From Pseudomonas sp. WN033 (GTDB lineage: Bacteria; Pseudomonadota; Gammaproteobacteria; Pseudomonadales; Pseudomonadaceae): 64,000 nucleotides of DNA. Positions 12,516-53,448 of this stretch are shown one piece after another. The stretch's first letter is position 1, and each line of letters opens with the position of its first letter. Under the pieces are notes generated by a model. It was not told where the DNA came from and ran no database searches. It saw only the letters and a list, made by a program, of their open reading frames with translations. Both the position numbers and the translations under genes were made by a program. The stretch is taken from assembly GCA_002287035.1 (NCBI GenBank), contig NSKG01000002.1, forward strand, positions 434,001 to 498,000, in the 5' to 3' direction.

Positions 12516-13475
12516 ATGTCCCACCGCGAACAGTTGCTCCAGCTCAAGACGTTCATGGGCCAGCAGATCTTTGGCCAGGAAGCCCTGATCGATCGCATGC
12601 TGATTTGCTTATTGGCCGGCGGCCATGTGCTGGTCGAGGGTGCGCCCGGATTGGCCAAGACCAAGGCGATCAAGGCCCTGTCCGAAGGTATCGAAGCCGA
12701 TTTTCATCGCATCCAATTCACCCCTGACCTGCTCCCGGCAGACATCACCGGCACCGAAATCTATCGTCCGGAGACCGCCAGCTTCAGCTTCCAGCAGGGA
12801 CCGATCTTCCATCACCTGGTACTGGCCGATGAGATTAACCGGGCACCGGCCAAGGTTCAGTCGGCGCTGCTTGAGGCAATGGCCGAGCGCCAGGTCAGTA
12901 TCGGCAGGGAAACCTACCCGCTGCCCGAGCTGTTCATGGTTATGGCGACCCAGAACCCGATCGAGCAGGAAGGCACCTACCCGCTACCCGAAGCCCAGCT
13001 CGACCGCTTCCTTATGCATGTGCGTATCGGTTTCCCTGATGCCGCACTGGAGCGCCAGATCCTGCAACTGGCCCGGGGCGAAGCCCAGGGGATCGAACCG
13101 CAGATCACCCGCAAGATCAGTCAGGACAGCATTCTCGCCGCCCGACAGGAAGTACTGGCACTGTTCATGGCCGAGGCAGTCGAGGAGTATTTGATCCAAC
13201 TGGTCATGGCCACTCGGCGCCCCGAGCTCTACAACCCCCAACTGGCCGAATGGCTGCAGATGGGGGCAAGCCCACGCGGCACCATTGCCCTGGACCGCTG
13301 TGCCCGGGCCCACGCCTGGCTGGCCGGACGTGACTTCGTCAGCCCGGAAGATGTTCAGGCAGTCGTTCACGATGTATTGCGCCACCGCCTGATTCTTAGT
13401 TTCGAGGCAGAGGCTGCCGGCATTGACGCCGATCGCGCCATTGCCCTGCTGATGGAGTCTGTCGCCGTCGTATGA
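12516..13475 (+). CDS. moxR: MoxR-family AAA+ ATPase
   Basis: Cytoplasmic AAA+ ATPase, 319 aa, thought to act as a chaperone that helps mature or load VWA-domain partner proteins. Walker A is GAPGLAKT (42-49), the family's GLAKT form; Walker B is LVLADEINRA (101-110). Sensor-type MATQNPIEQEGTYPLPEAQLDRF lies near 152-172, and a helical lid follows. An AGGAA stands 8 bases before the ATG at 12516. It opens a six-gene operon whose neighbours overlap by 4-14 bases (moxR, DUF58, DUF4381, batA, batB, batD), the standard MoxR-Bat arrangement. Confidence 0.93.
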   Translation: MSHREQLLQLKTFMGQQIFGQEALIDRMLICLLAGGHVLVEGAPGLAKTKAIKALSEGIEADFHRIQFTPDLLPADITGTEIYRPETASFSFQQGPIFHHLVLADEINRAPAKVQSALLEAMAERQVSIGRETYPLPELFMVMATQNPIEQEGTYPLPEAQLDRFLMHVRIGFPDAALERQILQLARGEAQGIEPQITRKISQDSILAARQEVLALFMAEAVEEYLIQLVMATRRPELYNPQLAEWLQMGASPRGTIALDRCARAHAWLAGRDFVSPEDVQAVVHDVLRHRLILSFEAEAAGIDADRAIALLMESVAVV

Positions 13476-41447: not shown

Positions 41448-41464
41448 CGGCACGTACCTTGCTT
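41448..41464 (+). promoter_or_regulatory. sigma-54 promoter of nasST
   Basis: CGGCACGTACCTTGCTT has GG (41449-41450) and GC (41461-41462) exactly 10 bases apart and matches TGGCACG-N4-TTGC except for its first base. The predicted start is near 41474, one base before the first ANTAR hairpin. Confidence 0.7.
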
Positions 41465-41474
41465 GCTGCTCGAT

Positions 41475-41558
41475 AGGGCATCAATGGCGATGCCCTTCAA
41501 CGACAACGGCGTCGTGCTGACAGATCGGTAATACCGAGGCTGCGGCACGGCGTTTTTT
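41475..41558 (+). ncRNA. ANTAR-target leader with terminator, upstream of nasS
   Basis: Hairpin P1 (41475-41496): AGGGCATC / GATGCCCT with hexaloop AATGGC. Hairpin P2 (41500-41515): ACGAC / GTCGT with hexaloop AACGGC. Both loops have A at position 1 and G at position 4, the rule for RNAs bound by ANTAR proteins. The terminator pairs CGTCGTGC (41510-41517) with GCACGGCG (41545-41552), followed by six Ts (41553-41558). The 3' arm of P2 lies wholly inside the terminator's 5' arm, so P2 and the terminator exclude each other. NasT binding should therefore allow read-through into nasS-nasT. Confidence 0.8.
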
Positions 41559-41577
41559 ATTGCCTGTGGAACATGAC

Positions 41578-42795
41578 ATGCAAACGGATACCCCAAAGCA
41601 GTCCGACCCTCTGGCCTGGGTTGCGGGCAACGACGCCCCGGAAAAACCGGTACTCAATATCGGTTTTATGCCCTTGACCGACTCAGCCTCGCTGATTGTT
41701 GCCGCCACCCAGGGATTTGCCCAGCAATACGGTCTGAGCATCAACCTCAAACGACAGAATTCCTGGGCAGGCTTGCGTGACCGACTGCTCAGCGGTGAAC
41801 TGGATGCCGCCCAAGGCCTGTATGGCCTGGCCTATGGCATTCACCTGGGCCTGGGTTGCCCGGCCACCCACATGGCGGTGCTCATGGGGCTGAACCAGAA
41901 CGGCCAGAGCATCAATCTGTCACGCGCGATGCTTGAGGCTGGCGTGACCAGCGGCGAGGCACTGGCGCGCAAAGCGCACCATGATGGGGCAAAATTGCGT
42001 CTGGCACAGACCTTCCCCACCGGCACCCATGCCATGTGGCTGTATTACTGGCTGGCCGCCCACGGCGTCCACCCGCTGCGCGATGTCGAGACCCTGGTGG
42101 TGCCTCCTTCGCAAATGGTCGAGCACCTGCGAGCTGGACGTATCGACGGCTTCTGTGCCGGCGAGCCCTGGGGTGCCTGCGCGATTGCCGAGGGCATGGG
42201 CTTCACGCTGGCGACCAGCCAGTCAATCTGGCCGGATCATCCGGAGAAAGTGCTATGCACCACCGCAGCCTTCGCCGAACAGTATCCCAATACCGCTCGG
42301 GCGCTGATCATGGCCCTGCTCGATGCCAGTCGGTTCATTGATGAAAACGCTGCCAATCGCGCCGGCACCGCGCAACTAATCAGCGCCAGCGAATATGTCG
42401 ACGCCCCACTGGGTGCCCTGCTCCCACGTTTTCAAGGAGAGTATGATGACGGTAACGGGCGAGTCTGGCAGGATAGCCACCCGCTGCGCTTCCATGCTGG
42501 CGGTGCAGTGAACCAGCCTTACCTGTCCGATGGCATCTGGTTCATGACCCAGTTCCGGCGCTGGGGCCTGTTGCGCCACGACCCTGACTATCTGGCCGTG
42601 GCTCATCAGGTTCAGCAGACCGGTCTGTATCGTGAGGCAGCCTCGGCGCTGGGCATTGCAACAGCCCCAGGCGACATGCGCAGCGCCTGCTTGATGGACG
42701 GCATAGACTGGAACGGTAGCAACCCCCATGACTATGCCCATGGTTTCAAGCTTCATGCCCTGAGTGATGACAAGACGTTATGCGAATCCTGCTGA
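41578..42795 (+). CDS. nasS: NasS, nitrate/nitrite-responsive regulator (NrtA/CmpA-like)
   Basis: 405-aa cytosolic sensor related to the periplasmic nitrate-binding protein NrtA but without a signal peptide. Without nitrate it holds NasT inactive; nitrate or nitrite releases NasT. Motifs typical of the family: LNIGFMPLTDSASLIVAATQGFA-type opening, NSWAGLRDRLLSGELDAAQGLYG, then THAMWLYYWLAAHGVHP and GEPWGACAIAEGMG. The ATG at 41578 is used; a TTG at 41560 lies right at the T run of the leader terminator. It overlaps nasT by 16 bases, which fits co-translation of the two partners. Confidence 0.92.
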   Translation: MQTDTPKQSDPLAWVAGNDAPEKPVLNIGFMPLTDSASLIVAATQGFAQQYGLSINLKRQNSWAGLRDRLLSGELDAAQGLYGLAYGIHLGLGCPATHMAVLMGLNQNGQSINLSRAMLEAGVTSGEALARKAHHDGAKLRLAQTFPTGTHAMWLYYWLAAHGVHPLRDVETLVVPPSQMVEHLRAGRIDGFCAGEPWGACAIAEGMGFTLATSQSIWPDHPEKVLCTTAAFAEQYPNTARALIMALLDASRFIDENAANRAGTAQLISASEYVDAPLGALLPRFQGEYDDGNGRVWQDSHPLRFHAGGAVNQPYLSDGIWFMTQFRRWGLLRHDPDYLAVAHQVQQTGLYREAASALGIATAPGDMRSACLMDGIDWNGSNPHDYAHGFKLHALSDDKTLCESC

Positions 42796-43355
42796 TCAAC
42801 GATACCGCCCGCAAGGTCGGTCGCCTGAGCGAGGCACTGCGAGACGCTGGGTTCGAGGTGTTCGACGAATCCGGCCTGTCAATCGACCTGCCGGCCCGGG
42901 TGCAGAGCTGTAAGCCGGATGTCATTCTGATCGACAGTGACTCTCCCGGACGCGACGTACTGGAACAACTGTGTCTGGTCAGCCGCGACCAGCCCAAGCC
43001 GATCGTCATGTTCACCGATGAACAGGACCCAGTCATCATGCGCCAGGCCATTCAGGCCGGGGTCAGTGCCTATATCGTCGAGGGCATCAACAGTACCCGG
43101 CTCAAGGCCATTCTCGACGTGGCCCAGGCCCGTTTCGAGACTGACCAGCAGTTGCGCGCCGAACTGCAGGCCCGCGAGCAGCAACTCAACGAGCGCAAGC
43201 GGATCGAAAAGGCCAAGGGGCTGTTGATGACCATGAAACAGTGCAGCGAACCCGAGGCCTATACCCTGATGCGCCGCCAGGCCATGGCCCGCCAGCAGAA
43301 GCTGATCCAGGTTGCCGAGCAGATCATCGCCATGCACGAGATGCTCAACGATTAG
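42780..43355 (+). CDS. nasT: NasT, ANTAR-domain transcription antiterminator
   Basis: 191-aa RNA-binding regulator. A receiver-like domain (1-120) has the possible phospho-acceptor D52 in ILIDSDSPG, but the acidic pocket reads N7-D8 rather than DD, and the conserved lysine is replaced by E101 (YIVEG). This fits control by binding to NasS rather than by phosphorylation. A coiled linker (120-138) leads to the ANTAR domain (138-190, ERKRIEKAKGLLM, YTLMRRQAMAR). It recognises paired hexaloop hairpins, of which three sets occur in this window. Four-gene neighbourhood as in other pseudomonads. Confidence 0.93.
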   Translation: MRILLINDTARKVGRLSEALRDAGFEVFDESGLSIDLPARVQSCKPDVILIDSDSPGRDVLEQLCLVSRDQPKPIVMFTDEQDPVIMRQAIQAGVSAYIVEGINSTRLKAILDVAQARFETDQQLRAELQAREQQLNERKRIEKAKGLLMTMKQCSEPEAYTLMRRQAMARQQKLIQVAEQIIAMHEMLND

Positions 43356-43395
43356 TGCAACGGCACTGCACACCACCTCAACACCTCCCCATACC

Positions 43396-43471
43396 GTCAT
43401 CGCGAAACGCGTAGCGTCGTGGCGATCCAGGCTGAGTGCCGACTGGATTGCCGCGCTACGCTCGCAATGAC
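43396..43471. repeat. interspersed inverted repeat (GTCATCGCGA...CGCAATGAC type)
   Basis: GTCATCGCGA-x-CGTAGCG and a GGCGATCCAG segment are mirrored by CTGGATTGCCGCG and CTACGCTCGCAATGAC around a short centre. The type is a widespread bacterial intergenic repeat. A fragment (CGTCATCGCAAGCGC) recurs at about 43517-43531. It lies between nasT and the nitrate transporter promoter. Confidence 0.65.
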
Positions 43472-43540
43472 AAGGCTTATGGTGGTGCCCAGCACCTGCA
43501 ACCCAACTCACCCACCGTCATCGCAAGCGCACTACCTCAC

Positions 43541-43556
43541 TGGCACACTTACTGCA
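43541..43556 (+). promoter_or_regulatory. sigma-54 promoter of the nitrate transporter operon
   Basis: TGGCACACTTACTGCA has GG (43542-43543) and GC (43554-43555) exactly 10 bases apart, and a full TGGCAC -24 box. The predicted start near 43567 falls one base before hairpin P1. Confidence 0.72.
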
Positions 43557-43567
43557 TACATCACCTG

Positions 43568-43654
43568 CAGGTAACCAACGGCGGTTACCTGAACAGACAA
43601 CGACGTCATCCCCGACCCGGACCCAGTCCGGGGTCGGGGGTGGCGTTTTTTTTT
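43568..43654 (+). ncRNA. ANTAR-target leader with terminator, upstream of the nitrate transporter gene
   Basis: P1 (43568-43591): CAGGTAACC / GGTTACCTG, 9 bp, hexaloop AACGGC. P2 (43596-43607): GAC / GTC, only 3 bp, hexaloop AACGAC. The terminator pairs CCCCGACCCGGAC (43610-43622) with GTCCGGG-TCGGGG (43626-43639, one bulged G) and ends in nine Ts (43646-43654). Both loops follow the A1/G4 rule. The weak P2 would form mainly when NasT is bound. No direct P2-terminator overlap is seen here. Confidence 0.75.
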
Positions 43655-43715
43655 GCCGCAATGCTGCAGGCAAAAGCCCCCAAAGCCTGATTTTGCCTAC
43701 GTTGAGGGATTGCAC

Positions 43716-44927
43716 ATGAATACAAGCTTCTGGAAAGCCGGCCACGCACCCACGCTGTTCGCCGCTTTTCTCTACTTCGATCTGAGCTTCATGGTCTGGT
43801 ACGTGCTCGGCCCCCTTGCGGTGCAGATCGCCACCGACCTGGGCCTGACTGCACAGGAACGGGGCATGATGGTAGCCACACCGATCCTGGCTGGTGCAAT
43901 TCTGCGACTGCTGCTGGGCTTTCTGGCTGATCGCACCTCCCCCAAGACTGCCGGCATCTTCGGCCAGGTAGTGGTGATTCTCGCCCTGCTCGCCGCCTGG
44001 ACGCTGGGTATCAACAGCTATGAGCAGGCGCTGCTGCTTGGCCTGGGCCTGGGCTTTGCCGGTGCCGCCTTCGCCGTGGCCCTGCCGCTGGCCTCGCAAT
44101 GGTATCCACCGGAGCATCAGGGCAAAGCCATGGGCATTGCCGGTGCCGGCAACTCCGGTACCGTGCTGGCGGCATTGTTCGCCCCAGGCCTGGCCTATCT
44201 GTTCGGCTGGCAGAACGTATTCGGCCTGGCCCTGATCCCGCTGGTGGCGACCCTGATCATCTTCATCCTGGTGGCCCGCAACGCTCCACAACGTCCCAAG
44301 CCCAAGGCTGCCCGTGACTATCTGATGGCGTTGAATGATCGTGACAGCTGGTGGTTCATGTTCTTCTACAGCGTTACCTTCGGCGGCTTTATCGGCCTGG
44401 CCAGCGCCCTGCCCGGCTACTTCAATGACCAATACGGGCTGGATCCGGTGGTCGCCGGCTACTACACCGCCGCCTGCGTCATGGCTGGCAGTCTGATGCG
44501 CCCGCTCGGTGGCGCTCTGGCAGATCGCATCGGCGGCATTCGTTCCCTGTTGTTCATGTACTCGGTCGCCGCCATCTGCATAGCTCTGGTGGGCTTCAAC
44601 CTGTCCAGCTCCTTCGCCGCGCTGGCCCTGTTCGTCGCCGCCATGCTCGGCCTGGGAGCTGGCAACGGCGCGGTTTTCCAGTTAGTACCCCAGCGTTTTC
44701 ACCGTGAAATCGGTGTCATGACCGGACTGATCGGCATGGCTGGCGGGGTCGGCGGCTTCGTATTGGCGGCCGGTCTGGGCACTATCAAACAGCATACCGG
44801 TGACTACCAGCTTGGCCTGTGGTTGTTCGCGGCACTCGGCGTACTGGCCCTGATCGGCCTGAGCGGAGTCAAGCGCCGCTGGCGGACCACCTGGGGCTCT
44901 TCGGCTGTCACCACGGCCAGGGTCTGA
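43716..44927 (+). CDS. nasA: nitrate/nitrite transporter, MFS (NarK/NasA family)
   Basis: Inner-membrane importer for nitrate, 403 aa, 12 predicted helices. It opens with FWKAGHAPTLFAAFLYFDLS, a NarK/NasA signature, and carries the glycine-rich nitrate signature motifs GAGNSGTVLAALFAP (about 145-159) and GMAGGVGGFVLAAGLG (about 347-362). The conserved arginine of the first signature lies in APILAGAILRLLLG. The ATG at 43716 follows GAGGGAT. The kinase/phosphatase gene begins 2 bp after its stop. Confidence 0.92.
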   Translation: MNTSFWKAGHAPTLFAAFLYFDLSFMVWYVLGPLAVQIATDLGLTAQERGMMVATPILAGAILRLLLGFLADRTSPKTAGIFGQVVVILALLAAWTLGINSYEQALLLGLGLGFAGAAFAVALPLASQWYPPEHQGKAMGIAGAGNSGTVLAALFAPGLAYLFGWQNVFGLALIPLVATLIIFILVARNAPQRPKPKAARDYLMALNDRDSWWFMFFYSVTFGGFIGLASALPGYFNDQYGLDPVVAGYYTAACVMAGSLMRPLGGALADRIGGIRSLLFMYSVAAICIALVGFNLSSSFAALALFVAAMLGLGAGNGAVFQLVPQRFHREIGVMTGLIGMAGGVGGFVLAAGLGTIKQHTGDYQLGLWLFAALGVLALIGLSGVKRRWRTTWGSSAVTTARV

Positions 44928-44929
44928 GC

Positions 44930-46588
44930 ATGAGCCTGCAACTGCGCATTGACGAGGCCAGCGCCGCTGGCCCACGCAAGGAAAATCAGGATGCTGTGCG
45001 GGTAGTCACACCAGCACCGCAACTGGCTGCCAGCAAGGGTCACCTGCTGGCCCTGGCCGATGGCGTGAGCCAATGCAGCGATGGCGGTCTGGCTGCCCGG
45101 GCCACCCTGCAGGCTCTGGCACTGGACTACTACTCCACGCCGGAAACCTGGTCGGTCACCCAGGCGCTGGAACGTCTGCTGACCGCCCACAACCGCTGGT
45201 TACGGGCCAATGGCGGCGGCCTGCCGCTGCTGACCACCCTGACCGCTCTGGTGCTGCGCGGGCGCCGCTACACCCTGGCCCATATCGGCGACTGCCGGGC
45301 CTATCTGCTACGCGATGGCCGGCTGCGCAAGCTGACCAGCGAGCATGTCTGGGAACAACCAGGCATGGAACACGTGCTCAAACGGGCGATGGGACTGGAT
45401 GAGCACCCGCTGATCGATTATCTGGATGGCGAACTCGACGAAGGCGATCAGCTCTTGCTGGTCAGTGATGGGGTCTGGGCCTATCTCAACGATCAGGCGA
45501 TCCATGACACCCTGGCTGCCAATGACGCCCCCGGTCGCTGTCAGCGGCTGATCGATCTGGCCCTGGCCAATGGCGGGCAGGACAATGCCAGCGCGCTGCT
45601 GGTCGGTATCGACACACTGCCTGACAGCAGCCTCGACGACGCGCTGCAACCAGCTGACGAGCGCGCCCTGCCGCCGCGCCTGAAACCCGACCAGCAGTTC
45701 GAGGGCTGGCATATCCAGCGCGAACTGGGCGAAACCCGCCAGTCGCTGCTGTATCGGGTCAAGGATGGCCTCGGCCAACCCTGGCTGCTCAAGACCCTGC
45801 CACCCCAGCGTCAGGATGAGCCACAGGCCTGCCGCGAACTGCTGCAGGAGGAGTGGTTCCTGCGCCGGGTGGCCGGGCAATCAGTCCCTGAACTGCATCC
45901 GCTGCCCGAACGTCAGCACCATTACTACGTGATGCGCGAGTACGCCGGACAGACCCTGGAGCAGCACAAGCGCGAGCATGGGCTCTGGAGCCTGGCGCTA
46001 TTCCAGCAACTGGCGCCGCAACTGATCAAGGCCGTCGGTCTGCTTCACCGGCGCAACCTGCTGCACCGCGACATCAAGCCGGACAATCTGCACCTGGGCG
46101 ATGACGGTGTGCTACGCCTGCTCGACTTCGGCCTGGCTTTCTGCCCCGGATTGTCCCAGTGGCAGACCGGCATCCCGCCCGGCACTCCCAGTTTCATTGC
46201 ACCGGAAGCCTTTGCCGGGGCCGAACCCAGCCCACAACAAGATCTGTATGCGACCGGCGTCAGCCTCTACTACCTGCTGACCGGGCATTATCCCTACGGC
46301 GAGATCGAGGCCTTCCAGCGCCCTCGCTTTGGCCGCCCCGCCCCACCCAGTCGCTATCGCCATGACTTGCCGGGCTGGGTCGACGAATGCCTGCTCAAGG
46401 CTCTGGAACCCGATCCTGACAAGCGCTACGAGACCGCCGAGGAGTGGTTATTGGCTCTGGAACAGGCCGAGCGCCTGCCCCAGCCCAGCCGCCCCTTGAT
46501 CGAACGCGAACCGCTGGTGGTCTGGCGCGCCGTGGCCCTGACCTCGCTCGCGCTCAACCTGGTGCTGTTGATGCTATTGCTTCGCTGA
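44930..46588 (+). CDS. bifunctional PP2C phosphatase / Ser-Thr protein kinase
   Basis: 552-aa fusion. The N-terminal PP2C domain (1-235) has KENQDAV, ALADGVS (D44), HIGDCRAYLL, LLLVSDGVW (D180) and GGQDNAS (D218). The C-terminal kinase domain (about 258-515) has the ATP lysine K288 (WLLKTL), LLHRDIKPDN (HRD at 379-381), LLDFGLAF (DFG at 399-401) and FIAPEAF (APE). The glycine loop is degenerate (RELGETRQSLLYRV). A single C-terminal helix (about 529-551) anchors it to the membrane. The gene is conserved at this place in pseudomonad nitrate clusters; its substrate is unknown, though the adjacent transporter or NasST are natural candidates. Confidence 0.92.
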   Translation: MSLQLRIDEASAAGPRKENQDAVRVVTPAPQLAASKGHLLALADGVSQCSDGGLAARATLQALALDYYSTPETWSVTQALERLLTAHNRWLRANGGGLPLLTTLTALVLRGRRYTLAHIGDCRAYLLRDGRLRKLTSEHVWEQPGMEHVLKRAMGLDEHPLIDYLDGELDEGDQLLLVSDGVWAYLNDQAIHDTLAANDAPGRCQRLIDLALANGGQDNASALLVGIDTLPDSSLDDALQPADERALPPRLKPDQQFEGWHIQRELGETRQSLLYRVKDGLGQPWLLKTLPPQRQDEPQACRELLQEEWFLRRVAGQSVPELHPLPERQHHYYVMREYAGQTLEQHKREHGLWSLALFQQLAPQLIKAVGLLHRRNLLHRDIKPDNLHLGDDGVLRLLDFGLAFCPGLSQWQTGIPPGTPSFIAPEAFAGAEPSPQQDLYATGVSLYYLLTGHYPYGEIEAFQRPRFGRPAPPSRYRHDLPGWVDECLLKALEPDPDKRYETAEEWLLALEQAERLPQPSRPLIEREPLVVWRAVALTSLALNLVLLMLLLR

Positions 46589-46676
46589 GTTCCCTGGGGG
46601 TGTCGTCCCTCACTCGACGGCATGCCTGGTACCCCCCCATGTTGGGTCGAGGTACGACATCCCCAGGAACCTTTTT
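46589..46676 (+). terminator. large hairpin terminator after the kinase gene
   Basis: GTTCCCTGGGGGTGTCG-CCTC... (from 46589) pairs imperfectly with ...GAGGTACGACATCCCCAGGAAC (ending 46670), followed by C and five Ts. It closes the transporter-kinase transcript. Confidence 0.65.
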
Positions 46677-46705
46677 CACCCAACCGGGCCACAAGCCCAA
46701 CAAAC

Positions 46706-46740
46706 GCACCATTGCAGTGCAAAACGCCACAATAAGGTGC
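46706..46740 (+). promoter_or_regulatory. tandem NtrC-type sites upstream of nirB
   Basis: GCACC-ATTGC-AGTGC (46706-46720) and GCCAC-AATAA-GGTGC (46726-46740) resemble the NtrC dyad GCACC-N5-GGTGC. Their centres are 20 bp apart, about two helix turns, and they lie roughly 80-115 bp before the predicted start, typical for a sigma-54 enhancer. Confidence 0.55.
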
Positions 46741-46795
46741 ACAAGAAGAGCCCAACAAGTGGCTCAAGCCATTGAAAATCAATAAAAATATAAAT

Positions 46796-46811
46796 TGGCA
46801 CACTGTGTGCA
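46796..46811 (+). promoter_or_regulatory. sigma-54 promoter of the nirBD-nitrate reductase operon
   Basis: TGGCACACTGTGTGCA with GG (46797-46798) and GC (46809-46810) exactly 10 bases apart and a full TGGCAC -24 box. Predicted start near 46822. Confidence 0.75.
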
Positions 46812-46842
46812 TTGCTATTACCAGCAATTCACATACAACGGT

Positions 46843-46927
46843 CCTGTCAACGGCGACAGGTCGTTTCCTGACCGATCAGGACCTGGACAAAGGCGTCCTA
46901 CCGCGCGAGCGGTGGGACGCCTTTTTT
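46843..46927 (+). ncRNA. ANTAR-target leader with terminator, upstream of nirB
   Basis: P1 (46843-46860): CCTGTC / GACAGG with hexaloop AACGGC. P2 (46866-46881): TCCTG / CAGGA with hexaloop ACCGAT. Both loops have A1 and G4. The terminator pairs GGCGTCCTACCGC (46892-46904) with GCGGTGGGACGCC (46909-46921), 13 bp around GCGA, followed by six Ts (46922-46927). Same design as the leaders of nasS and the transporter gene. NasT should bind P1-P2 and allow transcription into nirB. Confidence 0.85.
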
Positions 46928-46959: not shown

Positions 46960-49416
46960 ATGCAAAAGCTCAAGCTGGTGATGGTTGGTAACGGCATGGC
47001 CGGGGTACGAACCCTGGAAGAACTGCTGAAACTGACGCCCGACCTCTACGAGATCACCGTGTTCGGCGCCGAGCCGCACCCCAACTACAACCGGATCCTG
47101 CTGTCGCCGGTCCTGGCCGGGGAACAGACCTTCGAGGAAATCATCCTCAACCCGCTGTCCTGGTACGAGGAAAACGGCATTACCCTGCACACCGGCCGCA
47201 AGGTGGTGAAGATCGACCGACGCAACCGCAAGGTAATCGCCGACGACGGCACCGAGGCTGAATACGACCGCCTGCTGCTGGCCACCGGCTCCAACCCGTT
47301 CATCCTGCCGATTCCAGGCAACGATCTGGACGGTGTGATCGGCTACCGCGATATCGCCGATACCGAAACCATGATGGAGACCGCCAAGACTCACAAGCAT
47401 GCGGTGGTGATTGGCGGCGGTCTGCTCGGCCTGGAAGCGGCCAATGGGCTGAAACTGCGTGGCATGGATGTGACCGTGGTGCATATCGGTGACTGGCTGC
47501 TGGAGCGCCAGCTCGACCGCACCGCTGGCGAGCTGTTGCAGAAGTCGCTGGAAGATCGCGGCCTCAAATTCCTGCTGCCGCAGTTCACCAGCGAGCTGCT
47601 GGACGATGGCGACGGCCGCGTCTGCGGCGTCAAATTCAAGGACGGCAGCGTGATTCCGGCCGATCTGGTAGTGATGGCAGCCGGCATTCGGCCCAACACC
47701 GAACTGGCGGAAAGCGCGGGCCTGGCCTGCAACCGCGGGATTCTGGTCAGCGACACGCTGCAAACCTACGATCCGCGCATCTATGCCATCGGCGAGTGCG
47801 CCAACCATCGCGGCATTGCCTACGGCCTGGTAGCCCCGCTGTTCGAGCAGGCCAAGGTCTGTGCCAACCATCTGGCGATGCTCGGCTATGGCCGCTACGA
47901 GGGTTCGATCACCTCGACCAAGCTCAAGGTTACTGGCATTGATCTGTTCTCTGCTGGCGAGTTCATGGGCGATGACAGCACTGAGCAGATCACTCTGTCC
48001 GATCCGATTGGCGGGGTCTACAAGAAGCTGGTGATCAAGGATGACATTCTGGTCGGCGCCTGCATGTACGGCGACACTGCCGATGGTGGCTGGTATTTCC
48101 GGATGGTCAAGGAGCGCCACAACATCCGCGAGATTCGTGATCATCTGATGTTCGGTGAGAACGCTATCGGCGACACCGGTCACCAGGGCCAGAACAAGGC
48201 CGCCAACATGCCTGACGATATGGAGGTATGTGGTTGCAACGGGGTGTGCAAGGGCACCATCGTCAAGGCGATTCAGGAACACGGGCTGTTCAGTGTCGAT
48301 GATGTGAAGAAACACACCAAGGCCGGCGGTTCCTGTGGTTCCTGCGTGGGTCTGGTTGAGCAGATCGTGATCAATACCGTCGGCGGTGCTGCCGATGTGA
48401 AGCCCAAGAGCGAAAAGGCCGTCTGCGGTTGTACCGACCTGAATCACGGCCAGGTACGCAAGGCGATTCGCGAGCATCACCTGACCAGCATTCCGGAGGC
48501 GATGGCCTTTATGGAGTGGCGCACGCCGAACGGCTGTGCGACCTGCCGCCCGGCTATCAATTACTACCTCATTTCGACCTGGCCAGGCGAAGCCAAGGAT
48601 GATCCGCAGTCGCGCTTCATCAACGAGCGGGCCCACGCCAACATCCAGAAGGATGGCACCTATTCGGTAGTGCCGCGGATGTGGGGCGGTGTGACCAATG
48701 CCTCGGAGCTGCGCCGGATTGCCGATGTGGCGGACAAGTACAACGTACCGATGGTCAAGGTAACCGGTGGTCAGCGGATCGATCTGCTGGGGATCAAGAA
48801 AGAGGATCTGCCCAATGTCTGGAAGGACCTGGATATGCCCTCGGGGCATGCCTACGGTAAGTCCATTCGTACGGTGAAGACCTGTGTGGGCAGTGAGTTC
48901 TGCCGTTTCGGCACGCAAAACTCGACCCAGATGGGAATCGATCTGGAGCATGCGCTGTTCAACATGTGGTCGCCGCACAAGGTCAAGCTGGCGGTTTCGG
49001 GTTGCCCGCGCAACTGTGCTGAGTCGGGCATCAAGGATGTGGGGATCATCGGGGTGGATTCCGGTTGGGAGCTGTATATCGGCGGCAACGGCGGGATCAA
49101 GACCGAGGCCGGTGAATTCTTTGTGAAGGTGAAGACCGAAGATGAGGTGATGGAATACTCGCTGGCGTTCCTGCAGCTCTACCGTGAGGAGGCGTTCTAT
49201 CTGGAGCGTACGGTGCACTATATGCAGCGGGTCGGTATGGAGCACATCAAGCAGGCGGTGCTGGAGGATGCTGAGCGGCGCAAGGCGCTGCATGAGCGGC
49301 TGCTGTTCTCGCTGTCGTTCGAGCAGGATCCGTGGAAGGAGCGGATCGAGAAGGAAGAGCTGAAGCAGGAATTCCGCCGCATCGCGGTCAAGCAGATTGA
49401 AGGGGTGAACGCATGA
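46960..49416 (+). CDS. nirB: assimilatory nitrite reductase [NAD(P)H] large subunit
   Basis: Reduces nitrite to ammonium in the cytoplasm with six electrons from NAD(P)H. 818 aa from the ATG at 46960. Order: FAD/NAD(P)H oxidoreductase domain (GNGMAG at 10-15; VVIGGGLLGLEAANGL near 150), two BFD-like [2Fe-2S] segments (CGCNGVCKG from C424 with CGSC later; CGCTDLNHG with CATC), then the sulfite/nitrite reductase core with C642, C648, C682 and C686 in CVGSEFC and GCPRNC, which hold the 4Fe-4S cluster and siroheme. The upstream open frame to 46795 is the leader RNA. It overlaps nirD by 4 bases. Confidence 0.96.
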   Translation: MQKLKLVMVGNGMAGVRTLEELLKLTPDLYEITVFGAEPHPNYNRILLSPVLAGEQTFEEIILNPLSWYEENGITLHTGRKVVKIDRRNRKVIADDGTEAEYDRLLLATGSNPFILPIPGNDLDGVIGYRDIADTETMMETAKTHKHAVVIGGGLLGLEAANGLKLRGMDVTVVHIGDWLLERQLDRTAGELLQKSLEDRGLKFLLPQFTSELLDDGDGRVCGVKFKDGSVIPADLVVMAAGIRPNTELAESAGLACNRGILVSDTLQTYDPRIYAIGECANHRGIAYGLVAPLFEQAKVCANHLAMLGYGRYEGSITSTKLKVTGIDLFSAGEFMGDDSTEQITLSDPIGGVYKKLVIKDDILVGACMYGDTADGGWYFRMVKERHNIREIRDHLMFGENAIGDTGHQGQNKAANMPDDMEVCGCNGVCKGTIVKAIQEHGLFSVDDVKKHTKAGGSCGSCVGLVEQIVINTVGGAADVKPKSEKAVCGCTDLNHGQVRKAIREHHLTSIPEAMAFMEWRTPNGCATCRPAINYYLISTWPGEAKDDPQSRFINERAHANIQKDGTYSVVPRMWGGVTNASELRRIADVADKYNVPMVKVTGGQRIDLLGIKKEDLPNVWKDLDMPSGHAYGKSIRTVKTCVGSEFCRFGTQNSTQMGIDLEHALFNMWSPHKVKLAVSGCPRNCAESGIKDVGIIGVDSGWELYIGGNGGIKTEAGEFFVKVKTEDEVMEYSLAFLQLYREEAFYLERTVHYMQRVGMEHIKQAVLEDAERRKALHERLLFSLSFEQDPWKERIEKEELKQEFRRIAVKQIEGVNA

Positions 49417-49739
49417 ACTGGCTGGATATCTGTGCTCTGGAAGAGATTCCGCGTTTGGGTTCGCGGGTGATCGATGGTCCCAAGGGTGATATTGCGTTGT
49501 TTCGCACCAGTGAGGATGAGGTGTTTGCGCTGGATGACCGTTGCCCGCACAAGGGTGGGCCGCTGTCGCAGGGGATTATCTATGGCAAGCAGGTGGCCTG
49601 TCCGCTGCACAACTGGCAGATCCAGTTGGAGAGTGGCGAGGCGATAGCGCCGGATGTGGGATGCACCCATCGCTATCCGACCCGGGTTGAGGGTGGTCGG
49701 GTGCAGGTGGTTTTGGAAAAGGCCCGGGAGTCTGCTTGA
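49413..49739 (+). CDS. nirD: nitrite reductase small subunit (Rieske-type)
   Basis: 108-aa partner of NirB. Rieske [2Fe-2S] ligands are visible as CPHKGG (C-x-H) and CPLHNW (C-x-x-H), joined by the usual loop (LSQGIIYGKQVA). It begins MNWLDICALEEIPRLGSRVI, as expected for bacterial NirD. The ATG overlaps the nirB stop by 4 bases, so the subunits are translated together. Confidence 0.94.
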   Translation: MNWLDICALEEIPRLGSRVIDGPKGDIALFRTSEDEVFALDDRCPHKGGPLSQGIIYGKQVACPLHNWQIQLESGEAIAPDVGCTHRYPTRVEGGRVQVVLEKARESA

Positions 49740-49962: not shown

Positions 49963-52668
49963 ATGACCCAGACTACAGCTTCCACCTGTTGCTACTGCGG
50001 CGTCGGCTGCGGGGTGCTGATCGAGCATGACAACGAGCGCATTCTCGGGGTCAGCGGTGATCCGCAGCATCCGGCCAACCTCGGGCGGCTGTGCAGCAAG
50101 GGTTCGACCCTGCATCAGACCGGGGATCTGGCGGCGCGTGCGTTGTTTCCCGAGCTGCGCCTGGGCAAGGGTCTGGCCCGCAGTCGTACCGATTGGGAAA
50201 CCGCGATGGGTCATGCGGCCCAGGTATTCGGTCAGGCGATTGCCGAGCATGGCCCGGACAGTGTGGCGTTCTACATTTCCGGGCAGTTGTTGACCGAGGA
50301 TTACTATGCCTTCAACAAGTTGGCGCGGGCCCTGGTCAGTACCAACAATATCGACAGCAATTCGCGCTTGTGCATGTCCAGTGCGGTGGTCGGTTACAAG
50401 CGCAGCCTGGGGGCGGATGCGCCGCCCTGCTCTTACGAGGATATCGAGACCAGTGATTGTCTGTTGATCGCTGGCAGCAATATGGCCTTTGCCCATCCGG
50501 TGTTGTTCCGTCGTCTGGAAGCGGCCAAGGCAGCCAGTCCGGACAAGCGCATTATTGTGGTTGATCCCCGGCGTACCGATACCTGCGAGATTGCCGATCT
50601 GCACCTGGCGGTTCAACCAGGGACAGATGTAGCGCTGTTTCACGGCATTTTGCATATTCTGCTGTGGGAAGGCTGGATCGATCGGCGCTTTATCGATGCG
50701 CATACCGAGGGTTTTGATCAGCTGAAGTCGCTGGTGCGTGATTACACGCCGGCGCTGGTCAGTGAGTTGTGTGGTATTCGCGTGCAGGATCTGATGGAAG
50801 CGGCACGGATGATCGGCAGTGCGCCGAGTTTTCTGTCGCTGTGGTGCATGGGGCTGAATCAGTCAACGGCGGGCAGCGCCAAGAACAGTGCGTTGATTAA
50901 TCTGCATCTGGCCACCGGACAGATCGGCAAGCCGGGTAGCGGGCCGTTCTCGCTGACCGGCCAACCGAATGCCATGGGTGGACGTGAGACCGGTAGTCTG
51001 GCCAATCTGTTGCCGGGCCACCGCGATGCCGCCAATGCTGAGCATCAGGGTGAGGTGGCGGCCTATTGGGGAGTTGAGCGGATGCCGCTGAACCCGGGGC
51101 TGTCGGCCATCGAGCTGTTCGAGGCGGTGCGTGCTGGCAAGATCAAGGCGCTGTGGATTGCCTGTACCAATCCGGCGCAGTCGTTGCCGAATCAGGCGCT
51201 GGTACATGAGGCTCTGGCCAGTTGTCCGTTTGTAGTGGTGCAGGAAGCCTTCGCCACTACCGAGACCTGCGCCTATGCCGATCTACTGCTTCCGGCGGCC
51301 AGTTGGGGCGAAAAGGAAGGCACGGTGACCAATTCCGAGCGGCGCGTCAGTCATGTGCGCCCGGCAGTATCAGCGCCGGGTGAGGCGCGGCCGGACTGGG
51401 CGATTGTCTGTGATCTCGCCCAGCGACTGGAAAAGCAGTTGCGTCCGGGCCAGCCGAGCCTGTTCGCGTTTGCCAGCCCGGCCGAGCTGTTCGATGAATA
51501 CAAGGGGCTGACGGCAGGCCGCGATCTGGATTACAGCGGTCTGAGTCATGCCTTGATTGACGAACTGGGCCCGCAGCAGTGGCCGTTTCCCTCTGGCGCT
51601 GAGCGCGGCACCAAGCGTTTGTATGCCGATGGCCGCTTCCCTACTCCCGATGGCCGGGCGCGCTTTATCGCCGAGCAGTTCCAGCCGCCCAAGGAGAAGC
51701 GTGAGGCTCGTTTTCCGCTGCTGCTCAATACCGGTCGCCTGCGCGATCAGTGGCATGGCATGAGCCGCACCGGTACGGCGGCGCAGTTGTTCGGCCATGT
51801 CGAGCAGGCGCTGATCAGCCTGCATCCCGATGAGCTGCGCAGCCGCAAGCTGAGCGAGGGGCAACTTGTACGGGTCAAGAGCCGGCGCGGTAGTCTGGTG
51901 CTGCCGGTTCAGGCCGATGAACAGGTGCGTCCGGGCCAGGCCTTCATGCCGATGCATTGGGGTAACCGTTTTCTCAAGGGGCTGGGCATCAATGTGCTGA
52001 CCCAGCCGGAATTCGACCCGCTGTCCAAGCAGCCGGAACTCAAGCAGGCGGCGATCAATCTGCAGCCGGTGGAGCTGCCCTGGGAGCTGTTCATTCTGGT
52101 CGAGGATCAGGTGCAGCAACGCTTCGCCGCTTTGCGTCCGCTCTGCGAAGACTTCGAATACGCCAGCTTTGCCCTGACCGGGCGCGAACGCTCGGCCTTG
52201 CTGGTGCGGGTAGCACATACCGAGGCGGCCGATGCGACCTGGCTGGCCAAGGTAGATGCGCTGCTCGGGCTGGATGATGGCCCTGTGCTGGTCTATGACG
52301 ACCCGCGCCGGGCGGTGGGCAAACGAGTGCGGATCGAGGACGGACGCATCACGGCGATTCGTCTGACCGGCGAAACCGCGGCCCGCGACTGGCTGCGCAA
52401 TGTCTGGACCAGTGGCGAGGCCGATGCCGACCTGCGTCGCTGGTTCCTCGCCCCGCTCAGCAGCCCGCCCGGTGGCGCTGCGGTCAGTAGCGACAAAACC
52501 CTGTGTAACTGCATGAACGTCAGCCAGAGCCAGATCGAAGCCGGCATTGCCCGCGGCCTGGATCTGGACGGACTCAAGGCCGAGCTGGGTTGCGGTACCC
52601 AGTGCGGCTCCTGCGTGCCGGAAGTCAAGCGACTGATCGGTCGGCGAGCGAATTTTGTGGAGGCTTGA
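49963..52668 (+). CDS. nasC: assimilatory nitrate reductase, molybdopterin catalytic subunit
   Basis: Cytoplasmic enzyme that reduces nitrate to nitrite. 901 aa. N-terminal [4Fe-4S] ligands C9, C12, C16 and C44 (CYCGVGC and GRLCSKG); molybdenum-bis-MGD domains with NSRLCMSSAV near 129-138, GSNMAFAHPVLF, WCMGLNQSTAGS and GQPNAMGGRETG; and a C-terminal BFD-like [2Fe-2S] domain (about 845-900, CNCMNVSQSQIEAG and GCGTQCGSC) through which NADH-derived electrons probably enter. P. aeruginosa literature uses nasC for this gene; other species call it nasA or nasB. It lies after the repeat element following nirD. Confidence 0.94.
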   Translation: MTQTTASTCCYCGVGCGVLIEHDNERILGVSGDPQHPANLGRLCSKGSTLHQTGDLAARALFPELRLGKGLARSRTDWETAMGHAAQVFGQAIAEHGPDSVAFYISGQLLTEDYYAFNKLARALVSTNNIDSNSRLCMSSAVVGYKRSLGADAPPCSYEDIETSDCLLIAGSNMAFAHPVLFRRLEAAKAASPDKRIIVVDPRRTDTCEIADLHLAVQPGTDVALFHGILHILLWEGWIDRRFIDAHTEGFDQLKSLVRDYTPALVSELCGIRVQDLMEAARMIGSAPSFLSLWCMGLNQSTAGSAKNSALINLHLATGQIGKPGSGPFSLTGQPNAMGGRETGSLANLLPGHRDAANAEHQGEVAAYWGVERMPLNPGLSAIELFEAVRAGKIKALWIACTNPAQSLPNQALVHEALASCPFVVVQEAFATTETCAYADLLLPAASWGEKEGTVTNSERRVSHVRPAVSAPGEARPDWAIVCDLAQRLEKQLRPGQPSLFAFASPAELFDEYKGLTAGRDLDYSGLSHALIDELGPQQWPFPSGAERGTKRLYADGRFPTPDGRARFIAEQFQPPKEKREARFPLLLNTGRLRDQWHGMSRTGTAAQLFGHVEQALISLHPDELRSRKLSEGQLVRVKSRRGSLVLPVQADEQVRPGQAFMPMHWGNRFLKGLGINVLTQPEFDPLSKQPELKQAAINLQPVELPWELFILVEDQVQQRFAALRPLCEDFEYASFALTGRERSALLVRVAHTEAADATWLAKVDALLGLDDGPVLVYDDPRRAVGKRVRIEDGRITAIRLTGETAARDWLRNVWTSGEADADLRRWFLAPLSSPPGGAAVSSDKTLCNCMNVSQSQIEAGIARGLDLDGLKAELGCGTQCGSCVPEVKRLIGRRANFVEA

Positions 52669-52671
52669 ACA

Positions 52672-53448
52672 ATGCACGCATTAACCCCGAGTAATCCCAC
52701 CACTGCGAATATCTGGCTGGTCGGCGCCGGTCCCGGCGACCCGGAGCTGATTACCCTCAAGGCAGTACGGGTTCTGGCCCAGGCCGAGGTGGTGATGGTC
52801 GATGATCTGGTCAACCCGGCGATTCTCGAACACTGCCCGCAGGCGCGGATCATTCGGGTCGGCAAGCGTGGTGGCTGTCGTTCGACGCCGCAGGCGTTCA
52901 TCAATCGGCTGATGCTGCGCTATGGTCGCCAGGGCAAGCGTCTGGTGCGGCTCAAGGGCGGTGATCCGTGCATCTTCGGCCGCGCCGGCGAAGAAGCCCA
53001 GTGGCTGGCCGAGCGCGGGCTCAAGGCCGAGATCATCAACGGCATTACCGCCGGGCTGGCCGGAGCCACCCAGTGCGGCATTCCACTGACACTGCGCGGT
53101 GTCAGCCGGGGTGTGACGCTGGTGACAGCCCACACTCAGGATGACAGCGAGCTGAACTGGCAGGGTCTGGCTCAGGGTGGCACCACTCTGGTGGTGTACA
53201 TGGGCGTGGCCCGCTTGCAGCAGATCCAGCAAGGCTTGCTGGAAGGCGGCCTGTCTGCCAGCACTCCGGTGGCGATGATCGAACGTGCCAGCCACACCGA
53301 CCAGCGCCAGCATCAGTGCCGCCTGGATCAACTGTGCGAGCAGGCCGCCGCCTTCAGGCTGCAAAGCCCGGCCGTACTGGTGATTGGCGAGGTGGTGGCC
53401 GAGGCCAAGGCGCTGTTGCCGCAACTGGCTGAACAGGTCAGTGCCTGA
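52672..53448 (+). CDS. cobA: uroporphyrinogen-III C-methyltransferase
   Basis: 258 aa. Transfers two methyl groups from S-adenosylmethionine to uroporphyrinogen III, giving precorrin-2, the precursor of siroheme for NirB. SAM-binding VGAGPGDPELITLKAVRVL (about 16-34) and VGKRGGCRSTPQ (about 63-74), RLKGGDPCIFGRAGEEA (about 89-105) and TLVVYMGVARL (about 175-185) are all family signatures. It lacks the CysG dehydrogenase/chelatase domain, so that step is encoded elsewhere. Begins 3 bp after the nitrate reductase stop, which places siroheme supply in the same operon. Confidence 0.95.
   Translation: MHALTPSNPTTANIWLVGAGPGDPELITLKAVRVLAQAEVVMVDDLVNPAILEHCPQARIIRVGKRGGCRSTPQAFINRLMLRYGRQGKRLVRLKGGDPCIFGRAGEEAQWLAERGLKAEIINGITAGLAGATQCGIPLTLRGVSRGVTLVTAHTQDDSELNWQGLAQGGTTLVVYMGVARLQQIQQGLLEGGLSASTPVAMIERASHTDQRQHQCRLDQLCEQAAAFRLQSPAVLVIGEVVAEAKALLPQLAEQVSA

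Follow-up and report, generated by a model that had tools for sequence, protein, structure and literature searches.

Do a nitrate sensor and its RNA-binding partner govern their own synthesis by the same antitermination that opens the genes for nitrate uptake and reduction? The question is raised by a 64,000-nucleotide stretch of the genome of Pseudomonas sp. WN033 (the window), whose plus strand carries, between 40.9 and 53.4 kb, a nitrate-use cluster made up of a universal stress protein gene followed by nasS-nasT, narK-kinase and nirB-nirD-nasA-cobA, with one leader each 5' of nasS, narK and nirB. We consider it highly probable that NasT acts by antitermination on three sigma-54 units and, because nasST itself sits behind a NasT-type leader, that nasST is positively autoregulated. 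The base of this reading is the anatomy of the leaders, their conservation, the covariation of their first hairpin (P1), the competition between their second hairpin (P2) and an intrinsic terminator in predicted folds, and their co-occurrence with NasT.

Three leaders of one architecture

A sequence-only reading of the window had placed a GG-N10-GC promoter element before each of the three units (from 41448, 43541 and 46796), and the elements are indeed there (41448-41463, 43541-43556 and 46796-46811; Table 1). Its further claim, that hairpins with hexaloops of the A1/G4 type are followed by a GC stem and a run of Ts, is borne out in all three leaders; the count of two hairpins per leader holds for nasS and narK, whereas the nirB leader has a third A1/G4 hexaloop, AAAGGC at 46885-46898, part of whose hairpin also belongs to the terminator. 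Counted from the predicted +1, the first hairpin starts 1 base further on in the nasS and narK leaders and 21 bases further on in the nirB leader, and a C:G pair closes both hexaloops of the former two as well as the first and third (H1 and H3) of nirB.

Derived from these same three leaders, the P2 core pattern GACAANGRCGTC has only three exact matches in the 64 kb, one per leader (41502, 43596 and 46886); allowing up to one mismatch gives 13 matches against 2.1 expected, a number reached by none of 100 shuffles. Two Rfam families recognize the leaders: RF03032 (narK RNA; gathering cut-off 43.2 bits) matches the nasS leader at 41449-41515 with 51.4 bits and the narK leader at 43542-43609 with 50.2 bits, and RF00625 (P11; gathering cut-off 70 bits) matches the nirB leader at 46784-46921 with 100.7 bits, giving the nasS leader 19.3. 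All three fold better than each of 200 dinucleotide shuffles (z of -5.1 for nasS, -6.7 for narK and -7.3 for nirB).

Conservation and covariation in relatives

We compared the window with 80 named Pseudomonadaceae loci and their flanks, the best 80 of at least 364 confirmed NasT relatives; these loci are mostly from Pseudomonas and hence non-independent. Among the 81 loci with at least 200 nucleotides upstream of nasS, a sigma-54 element and a P2 of the form GAC-N6-GYC are present in 77, with a T-run as well in 73; before narK the corresponding counts are 65 and 63 of 66. The nirB leaders, counted with a looser promoter pattern (the strict one missed the window's own nirB promoter), have P2, T-run and promoter in 55 of 56 cases, the sole miss being L089. 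The sigma-54 elements are thus conserved at all three promoters.

Loss of the A1/G4 hexaloops in related genomes was one outcome that the sequence-only reading had named as refuting it, and the loops are conserved. In P2, where the pattern leaves the loop letters free, A1/G4 is found in 71 of 75 distinct nasS leaders, 60 of 60 narK leaders and 50 of 50 nirB leaders. With P1 picked regardless of its loop letters, A1/G4 occurs in 59 of 75 nasS leaders (6.6% in shuffles), in 60 of 60 narK leaders (5.8%) and in 39 of 44 nirB leaders; one of the five nirB misses is the window itself, where a longer, unrelated hairpin was picked. P1 is closed by C:G in all 51 chosen nasS and narK leaders, a pair that the pattern imposes on P2. 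P1 also covaries: across 47 distinct nasS and narK leaders, 98 cells are altered on both sides of the stem, against 39.9 +/- 4.7 after shuffling.

From an alignment of 51 nasS and narK leaders of relatives (A2), which admits only rows with an A1/G4 P1 and a GAC-N6-GYC P2 and so fixes those letters by construction, we built a covariance model, R2, that excludes the window and inherits the selection of A2. The window's nasS and narK leaders are its top two matches in both window and genome (39.6 and 38.3 bits), followed at 16.2 bits in the window and 21.4 bits in the genome; further targets in the same genome were rejected as candidates, the best remaining matches not exceeding 21.4 bits.

Weak R2 matches fall at 13 places in the relatives, of which, by eye, six look like real leaders and seven like coding sequence. 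Of the real-looking leaders, three precede a nitrate-reductase-like gene (L186, L187 and L190), two a cobA-like gene (L189 and L198) and one (L196) a gene for a nitrate-binding protein with a twin-arginine translocation (Tat) signal. A further ANTAR-type leader with a sigma-54-like element stands before a nitrate-binding-protein-like gene in Stutzerimonas (L039, 13219-13350), and L075 has a similar match near 13019. At the level of the class, R2 matches number 44 and are spread over 38 of 369 genomes, the count including the two in the window; 28 of these loci were inspected, 21 being judged real and 7 chance (L145, L147 and L152-L156). One locus from another gammaproteobacterial family (L149) has an ANTAR-type leader before a gene whose start resembles an outer-membrane porin.

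The terminator and P2 compete for one arm in predicted folds

The competition was assessed by folding those distinct leaders in which promoter, P2 and T-run are all present. In 170 of these 176 predicted folds the terminator takes up the 3' arm of the second hexaloop hairpin; in the minimum-energy fold this arm is paired wholly downstream in 66 of 70 nasS, 60 of 60 narK and 44 of 46 nirB leaders, as against 64 of 210, 28 of 180 and 21 of 138 when the downstream part is shuffled. Enforcing P2 costs a median of 9.0 (nasS), 11.1 (narK) and 12.6 (nirB) kcal/mol, so that, if the predictions hold, P2 would have to be kept in place by some other factor, for instance a bound protein. P2 and the terminator are mutually exclusive in the modelled structures, and in nirB it is H3 that overlaps the terminator. 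With conserved loops, this competition in folding and the co-occurrence of leaders with NasT described below, all three units look like NasT targets, as had been proposed from the sequence.

Three hexaloops in the nirB leader

The hairpin with loop ACCGAT (H2) had been put forward as the second ANTAR hairpin of nirB; here we depart from the sequence-only reading, taking H3 as P2 because closing pair, sequence and terminator overlap all favour it. H3 matches the P2 hairpins of the nasS and narK leaders in sequence and has an arm in common with the terminator, whereas H2 does neither. In an alignment of 39 nirB leaders (A3, which admits only rows with GAC-AAAGGY-GTC and so fixes those letters by construction), H1 is closed by C:G in 39 of 39 and H2 by G:C in 39 of 39, the C:G pair of H3 being set by the selecting pattern. 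The ACCGAT hairpin was accordingly rejected as a terminator-excluding P2, given its G:C closing pair and its lack of overlap. Spacing fits the same assignment: P1 and P2 loops usually lie 16-19 nucleotides apart (59 of 60 narK leaders; 16-18 in 54 of 59 nasS leaders), and removal of the 16-nucleotide H2 hairpin leaves 17-20 nucleotides between the loops of H1 and H3. Most likely, then, the NasT site of the nirB leader is H1 plus H3, with H2 as a folded-out spacer hairpin. For the nirB leader of the window itself, the minimum-energy fold has another pairing in place of H1 and H2; both appear in the centroid.

It is possible but rather unlikely that NasT binds every one of the three hexaloops, as several dimers or as an oligomer, with H2 no spacer at all. 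The H2 loop behaves like a binding site in several ways: picked regardless of its letters, it is of the A1/G4 type in 43 of 44 distinct nirB leaders, and in the alignment A1 (38 of 39), G4 (39 of 39) and A5 (38 of 39) persist while positions 2 and 3 vary; it also lies 16-18 nucleotides from H1, the usual P1-P2 spacing. An additional upstream A1/G4 hexaloop occurs in 9 of the 21 real leaders of other gammaproteobacterial families (three of the nine in one genus), against 0.69 by shuffling, and free NasT is described as oligomeric in Paracoccus. The consistently G:C closing pair of H2 is nevertheless unlike the C:G of H1 and of all 51 nasS and narK P1 hairpins, C:G being the pair selected when NasR was subjected to systematic evolution of ligands by exponential enrichment (PMC7496416), and H2, without terminator overlap, is the hairpin whose folding out restores near-usual spacing between its neighbours.

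A leader dedicated to nasST

We judge it improbable that the nasS leader is a remnant or a plain attenuator and that nasST is not NasT-dependent through it, although a few relatives, among them P. aeruginosa PA7 (L043), have a leader of degenerate appearance, dependence of NasT on itself would require a basal leak for its start, and inspection of the 21 leaders judged real in other gammaproteobacterial families showed none that stands before nasST. Upstream of nasS in PA7, the promoter and a P1-like hairpin are kept, by eye, with no P2 or T-run, and R2 still gives 17.9 bits. Neutral decay would hardly leave promoter, P2, T-run and competing folds in place, and these are what most relatives retain: the sigma-54 element and P2 in 77 and the T-run in 73 of 81 loci, and the competing folds in 66 of 70 distinct leaders.

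Which ANTAR protein reads the leaders

Two ANTAR proteins are encoded in the genome, NasT and a NasR-like protein (NIT plus ANTAR, 429 amino acids), the gene for which lies about 27 kb before the window (G000:C12:405648-406934) and adjoins that for a Tat-signal nitrate-binding protein; judged by homology, one genome may hold two nitrate-responsive antiterminators. Among 59 genomes of the family, 33 have both leaders and NasT and 24 have neither, one (G646) having a weak leader match only and one (G629) NasT only. NasR is present in 11 of the 59 and leaders in 34, with an overlap of 8; of the genomes with NasR and without NasT, three (G614, G619 and G640) have no leader match, and G646 has the one weak match, by eye coding sequence. 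Because the leaders track NasT better than NasR, we favour NasT as the protein that reads them, though cross-talk may occur.

It is very unlikely that the leaders are read by NasR, a one-component nitrate-sensing ANTAR protein, or by NasR and NasT both: NasR is encoded in the same genome, binds a like motif of two C:G-closed A1/G4 hairpins (PMC7496416) and in two relatives (L189 and L198) has its gene about 3.5 kb from leaders that resemble those of the window with weak R2 scores, but the NasR-only genomes G614, G619 and G640 have no leader match, and beside the genome's own NasR gene R2 finds only a partial match of 5.9 bits at a P2-like hairpin. Between that gene and those for the Tat-signal nitrate-binding protein and ABC components, before an nrtA-like gene near G000:C12:405400, lies a region (L205, 1150-1460, minus strand) with a sigma-54-like element, a hairpin with an AACGGC hexaloop and a terminator-like stem followed by Ts, part of which R2 sees.

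Promoter control and points on the other side

Several observations weigh against NasT antitermination at all three sigma-54 units, beginning with the promoters. The sigma-54 consensus is TGGCACG-N4-TTGCW and that of NtrC sites GCAC-N7-GTGC. With up to one mismatch the former has 17 matches in the window against 17.3 expected, so the elements count as evidence through their conservation only, and the pattern was rejected as stand-alone evidence. As for the claimed control by NtrC and RpoN, the sigma-54 elements are conserved, and an NtrC-like site precedes nirB; in relatives GCAC-N7-GTGC occurs before nirB in 26 of 50 cases, compared with 68 of 250 windows drawn at random from these loci. NtrC control is not supported at the other two units, where relatives have the dyad less often than the control windows (nasS, 6 of 75 against 73 of 375 in controls; narK, 4 of 60 against 65 of 300). 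NtrC enhancer sites at nasS and narK were rejected, a consensus scan and an unbiased dyad count having given nothing convincing. Since nasS and nasT are down in the transcriptome of a P. stutzeri ntrC mutant (PMC8443478), NtrC may act through sites outside this consensus.

In the leaders themselves, P2 is nearly invariant and yields no covariation proof of its pairing; because its sequence hardly varies, the stem is supported by conservation alone. R2 scores the nirB leader weakly (10.6 and 12.6 bits), the nasS leader pattern is missed in L034, L036, L043 (P. aeruginosa PA7) and L054, and 16 of 75 nasS P1 hairpins are not scored as A1/G4, six of these having CCAAYGNCGG by eye. On the protein side, the association between leaders and NasT (Fisher p 2.8e-14) comes from a test that ignores shared ancestry, and the NasR-like protein could bind these leaders. 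Published genetics adds two points of the same kind: in Paracoccus, a mutated second hairpin made little difference when nitrate was present (PMC5424462), and in Bradyrhizobium, predicted NasT hairpins do not ensure activation of narK, whose expression rises under denitrifying conditions when nasT is mutated, others having reported a fall in such a mutant during aerobic assimilation (PMC6759348).

Relation to known systems

The nirB leader has the nearest precedent, and a closer one than the sequence-only reading had stated: the nirBD leader of Pseudomonas is itself described as a NasT target, under the name NalA, an RNA that depends on sigma-54 and NtrC and on which NasT permits read-through (review PMC12830290). 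P11 has been described as a regulator of a nirB-nirD-nasC operon (PMC12080996). By name, gene and place, the P11 of Rfam, the P11 of P. aeruginosa PA14 and NalA would be one RNA. The window's nirB leader resembles NalA/P11 (RF00625) in its downstream gene, its sigma-54 promoter and its putative NasT antitermination, with no essential difference known; the assignment of H1, H2 and H3 is made here.

As for RF03032, both the nasS and the narK leader score over its cut-off, and one of the two matches therefore precedes nasS, not narK. Its model opens with an apparent -24/-12 promoter (GGCaCAgcucUUGCU) and leaves the P2 hairpin unpaired, where we see a promoter followed by an ANTAR leader. The models of RF03032 and RF00625 alike treat an apparent -24/-12 promoter as RNA, RF00625 even pairing promoter letters.

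The antiterminators of EutV (eut), NasR (nasF) and AmiR (amiE) share with the window's leaders two A1/G4 hexaloops, C:G closing pairs and a P2 that overlaps the terminator (PMC3369931, PMC7496416); unlike those systems, three units of one cluster here stand behind matching sigma-54 promoters. A 2012 study had already predicted multi-operon ANTAR regulons, with matches before genes for nitrate transporters and for nitrite reductase (PMC3369931). A precedent for autoregulation is amiEBCRS, in which sensor and ANTAR regulator (AmiC-AmiR) lie within the operon that they regulate (PMC3795266); there the regulator genes are 3' of the target enzyme gene, in the operon order as named, whereas nasST has a dedicated leader. 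In Paracoccus denitrificans, NasT binds the nasA leader RNA, hairpin HI of which is required for growth on nitrate (PMC5424462), and an NtrC site lies in the region of the nasT promoter. The available account of that organism places its hairpin leader between nasTS and nasA and describes no antiterminator leader before nasT. In P. putida, deletion of nasT abolishes growth on nitrate.

The nirB third of our finding, and the existence of multi-operon ANTAR regulons, are thus already known. Within the literature searched, which did not take in the original NalA/P11 papers, we found no description of a nasST leader; relative to that literature we add this dedicated leader and a record of how widely it occurs among the Pseudomonadaceae loci compared, the reading of two Rfam families as a single code, and the probable role of one nirB hairpin as a spacer.

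The locus and its genes

Among the matches listed from named genomes, the closest relatives of NasT are two from Halopseudomonas (84 and 81% identity) and one from Pseudomonas neustonica (80%), which marks the window as Halopseudomonas-like. A long inverted repeat with a T-run is the likely end of the narK-kinase unit, so nirB is probably its own transcription unit. Of 12 loci from relatives that were displayed, 11 also have the phosphatase-kinase fusion gene beside narK. Between nasT and the narK promoter (43394-43530), repeated motifs of the CGTCATCGC type resemble, by eye, a repetitive extragenic palindromic (REP) element. Table 1 gives the coordinates of all features.

Table 1. Features of the nitrate-use cluster, in positions of the 64,000-nucleotide window
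Feature	Position	Strand	Basis and remarks
Sigma-54 -24/-12 element of nasST (CGGCACGTACCTTGCT)	41448..41463	+	Predicted +1 at 41474; kept before nasS in relatives
nasS leader P1 hairpin, hexaloop AATGGC at 41483-41488	41475..41496	+	Fold; homologous leaders
nasS leader P2 hairpin core, GAC-AACGGC-GTC	41502..41513	+	Stem reaches 41500-41515
nasS leader intrinsic terminator	41508..41558	+	Stem 41508-41554, Ts 41553-41558; shares 3' arm of P2
nasS, NMT1-like nitrate sensor	41578..42795	+	Pfam NMT1_2 6.5e-90; start codon assumed; name from position before nasT and relatives
nasT, receiver and ANTAR domain, overlapping nasS end	42780..43355	+	Pfam ANTAR 5.9e-18, Response_reg 3.8e-08
Sigma-54 element of narK operon (TGGCACACTTACTGCA)	43541..43556	+	Predicted +1 at 43567; kept in relatives
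narK leader P1 hairpin, hexaloop AACGGC at 43577-43582	43568..43591	+	Fold; homologous leaders
narK leader P2 hairpin, GAC-AACGAC-GTC, 3-bp core	43596..43607	+	Pattern match
narK leader intrinsic terminator	43602..43654	+	Stem 43602-43647, Ts 43646-43654; shares 3' arm of P2
narK-type nitrate/nitrite MFS transporter	43716..44927	+	NCBIfam TIGR00886 6.1e-92, 308.5 bits, just under curated cut-off 311.7; Pfam MFS_1
PP2C phosphatase and Ser/Thr kinase fusion, second gene of narK unit	44930..46588	+	Pfam Pkinase 3.4e-27, PP2C_2 2.2e-11
Long inverted repeat and T-run, likely terminator of narK-kinase unit	46589..46676	+	Fold -46.3 kcal/mol, z -4.3
NtrC-like dyad upstream of nirB (GCACCATTGCAGTGC)	46706..46720	+	Exact GCAC-N7-GTGC
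Sigma-54 element of nirB (TGGCACACTGTGTGCA)	46796..46811	+	Predicted +1 at 46822
nirB leader H1 hairpin, hexaloop AACGGC at 46849-46854	46843..46860	+	Hairpin scan; relatives' alignment
nirB leader H2 hairpin, loop ACCGAT at 46871-46876; probable spacer hairpin	46866..46881	+	G:C closing pair
nirB leader H3 hairpin, GGAC-AAAGGC-GTCC; probable true P2	46885..46898	+	Absent from the sequence-only reading
nirB leader intrinsic terminator	46889..46927	+	Stem 46889-46924, Ts 46922-46927; shares 3' arm of H3
nirB, nitrite reductase large subunit	46960..49416	+	TIGR02374 2e-285
nirD-like small subunit	49413..49739	+	Open reading frame; name from position
Assimilatory-type nitrate reductase, molybdopterin oxidoreductase with BFD-like [2Fe-2S]	49963..52668	+	Fdh-alpha, NasA and NasC models match, all under cut-off
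cobA-type uroporphyrinogen-III C-methyltransferase	52672..53448	+	NF004790 1.8e-99

Proposed mechanism and meaning

In the mechanism that we propose, each operon would be transcribed from its sigma-54 promoter into a short leader RNA whose default fold is P1 plus the intrinsic terminator. Binding of nitrate or nitrite to NasS would free NasT, whose ANTAR domains would grip the hexaloops of P1 and P2; with P2 held, the terminator would lose its 5' arm and RNA polymerase would read into nasS-nasT, narK-kinase and nirB-nirD-nasA-cobA. Free NasT would raise the synthesis of NasT and NasS, an effect damped by the co-made inhibitor NasS, and would open the transporter and reductase units as well. 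The combination of a feed-forward with an autoregulatory loop is predicted from the gene layout; the binding of NasT to RNA, the dependence on nitrate and the read-through at these leaders we infer from published work on NasT, NasR and EutV.

A wider reading is possible, though less likely than not: with nasST behind its own NasT antiterminator across the Pseudomonadaceae, the nitrate switch would reinforce itself and might show hysteresis, a single RNA code would serve sensor, transporter and reductase, P11 and the narK RNA would be two descriptions of that code, and the spacer or third hexaloop of nirB would tune the threshold. P11 is reportedly the RNA studied in learned avoidance by C. elegans. 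Our reading brings the narK RNA, P11 and the nasS leader under a single mechanism based on a common sequence code. It predicts self-control of NasT synthesis for most of the Pseudomonadaceae loci compared, in P. aeruginosa PA7 not through the nasS leader, and it bears on the origin of P11, a small RNA of wider interest, which would be the terminated form of a NasT-controlled leader.

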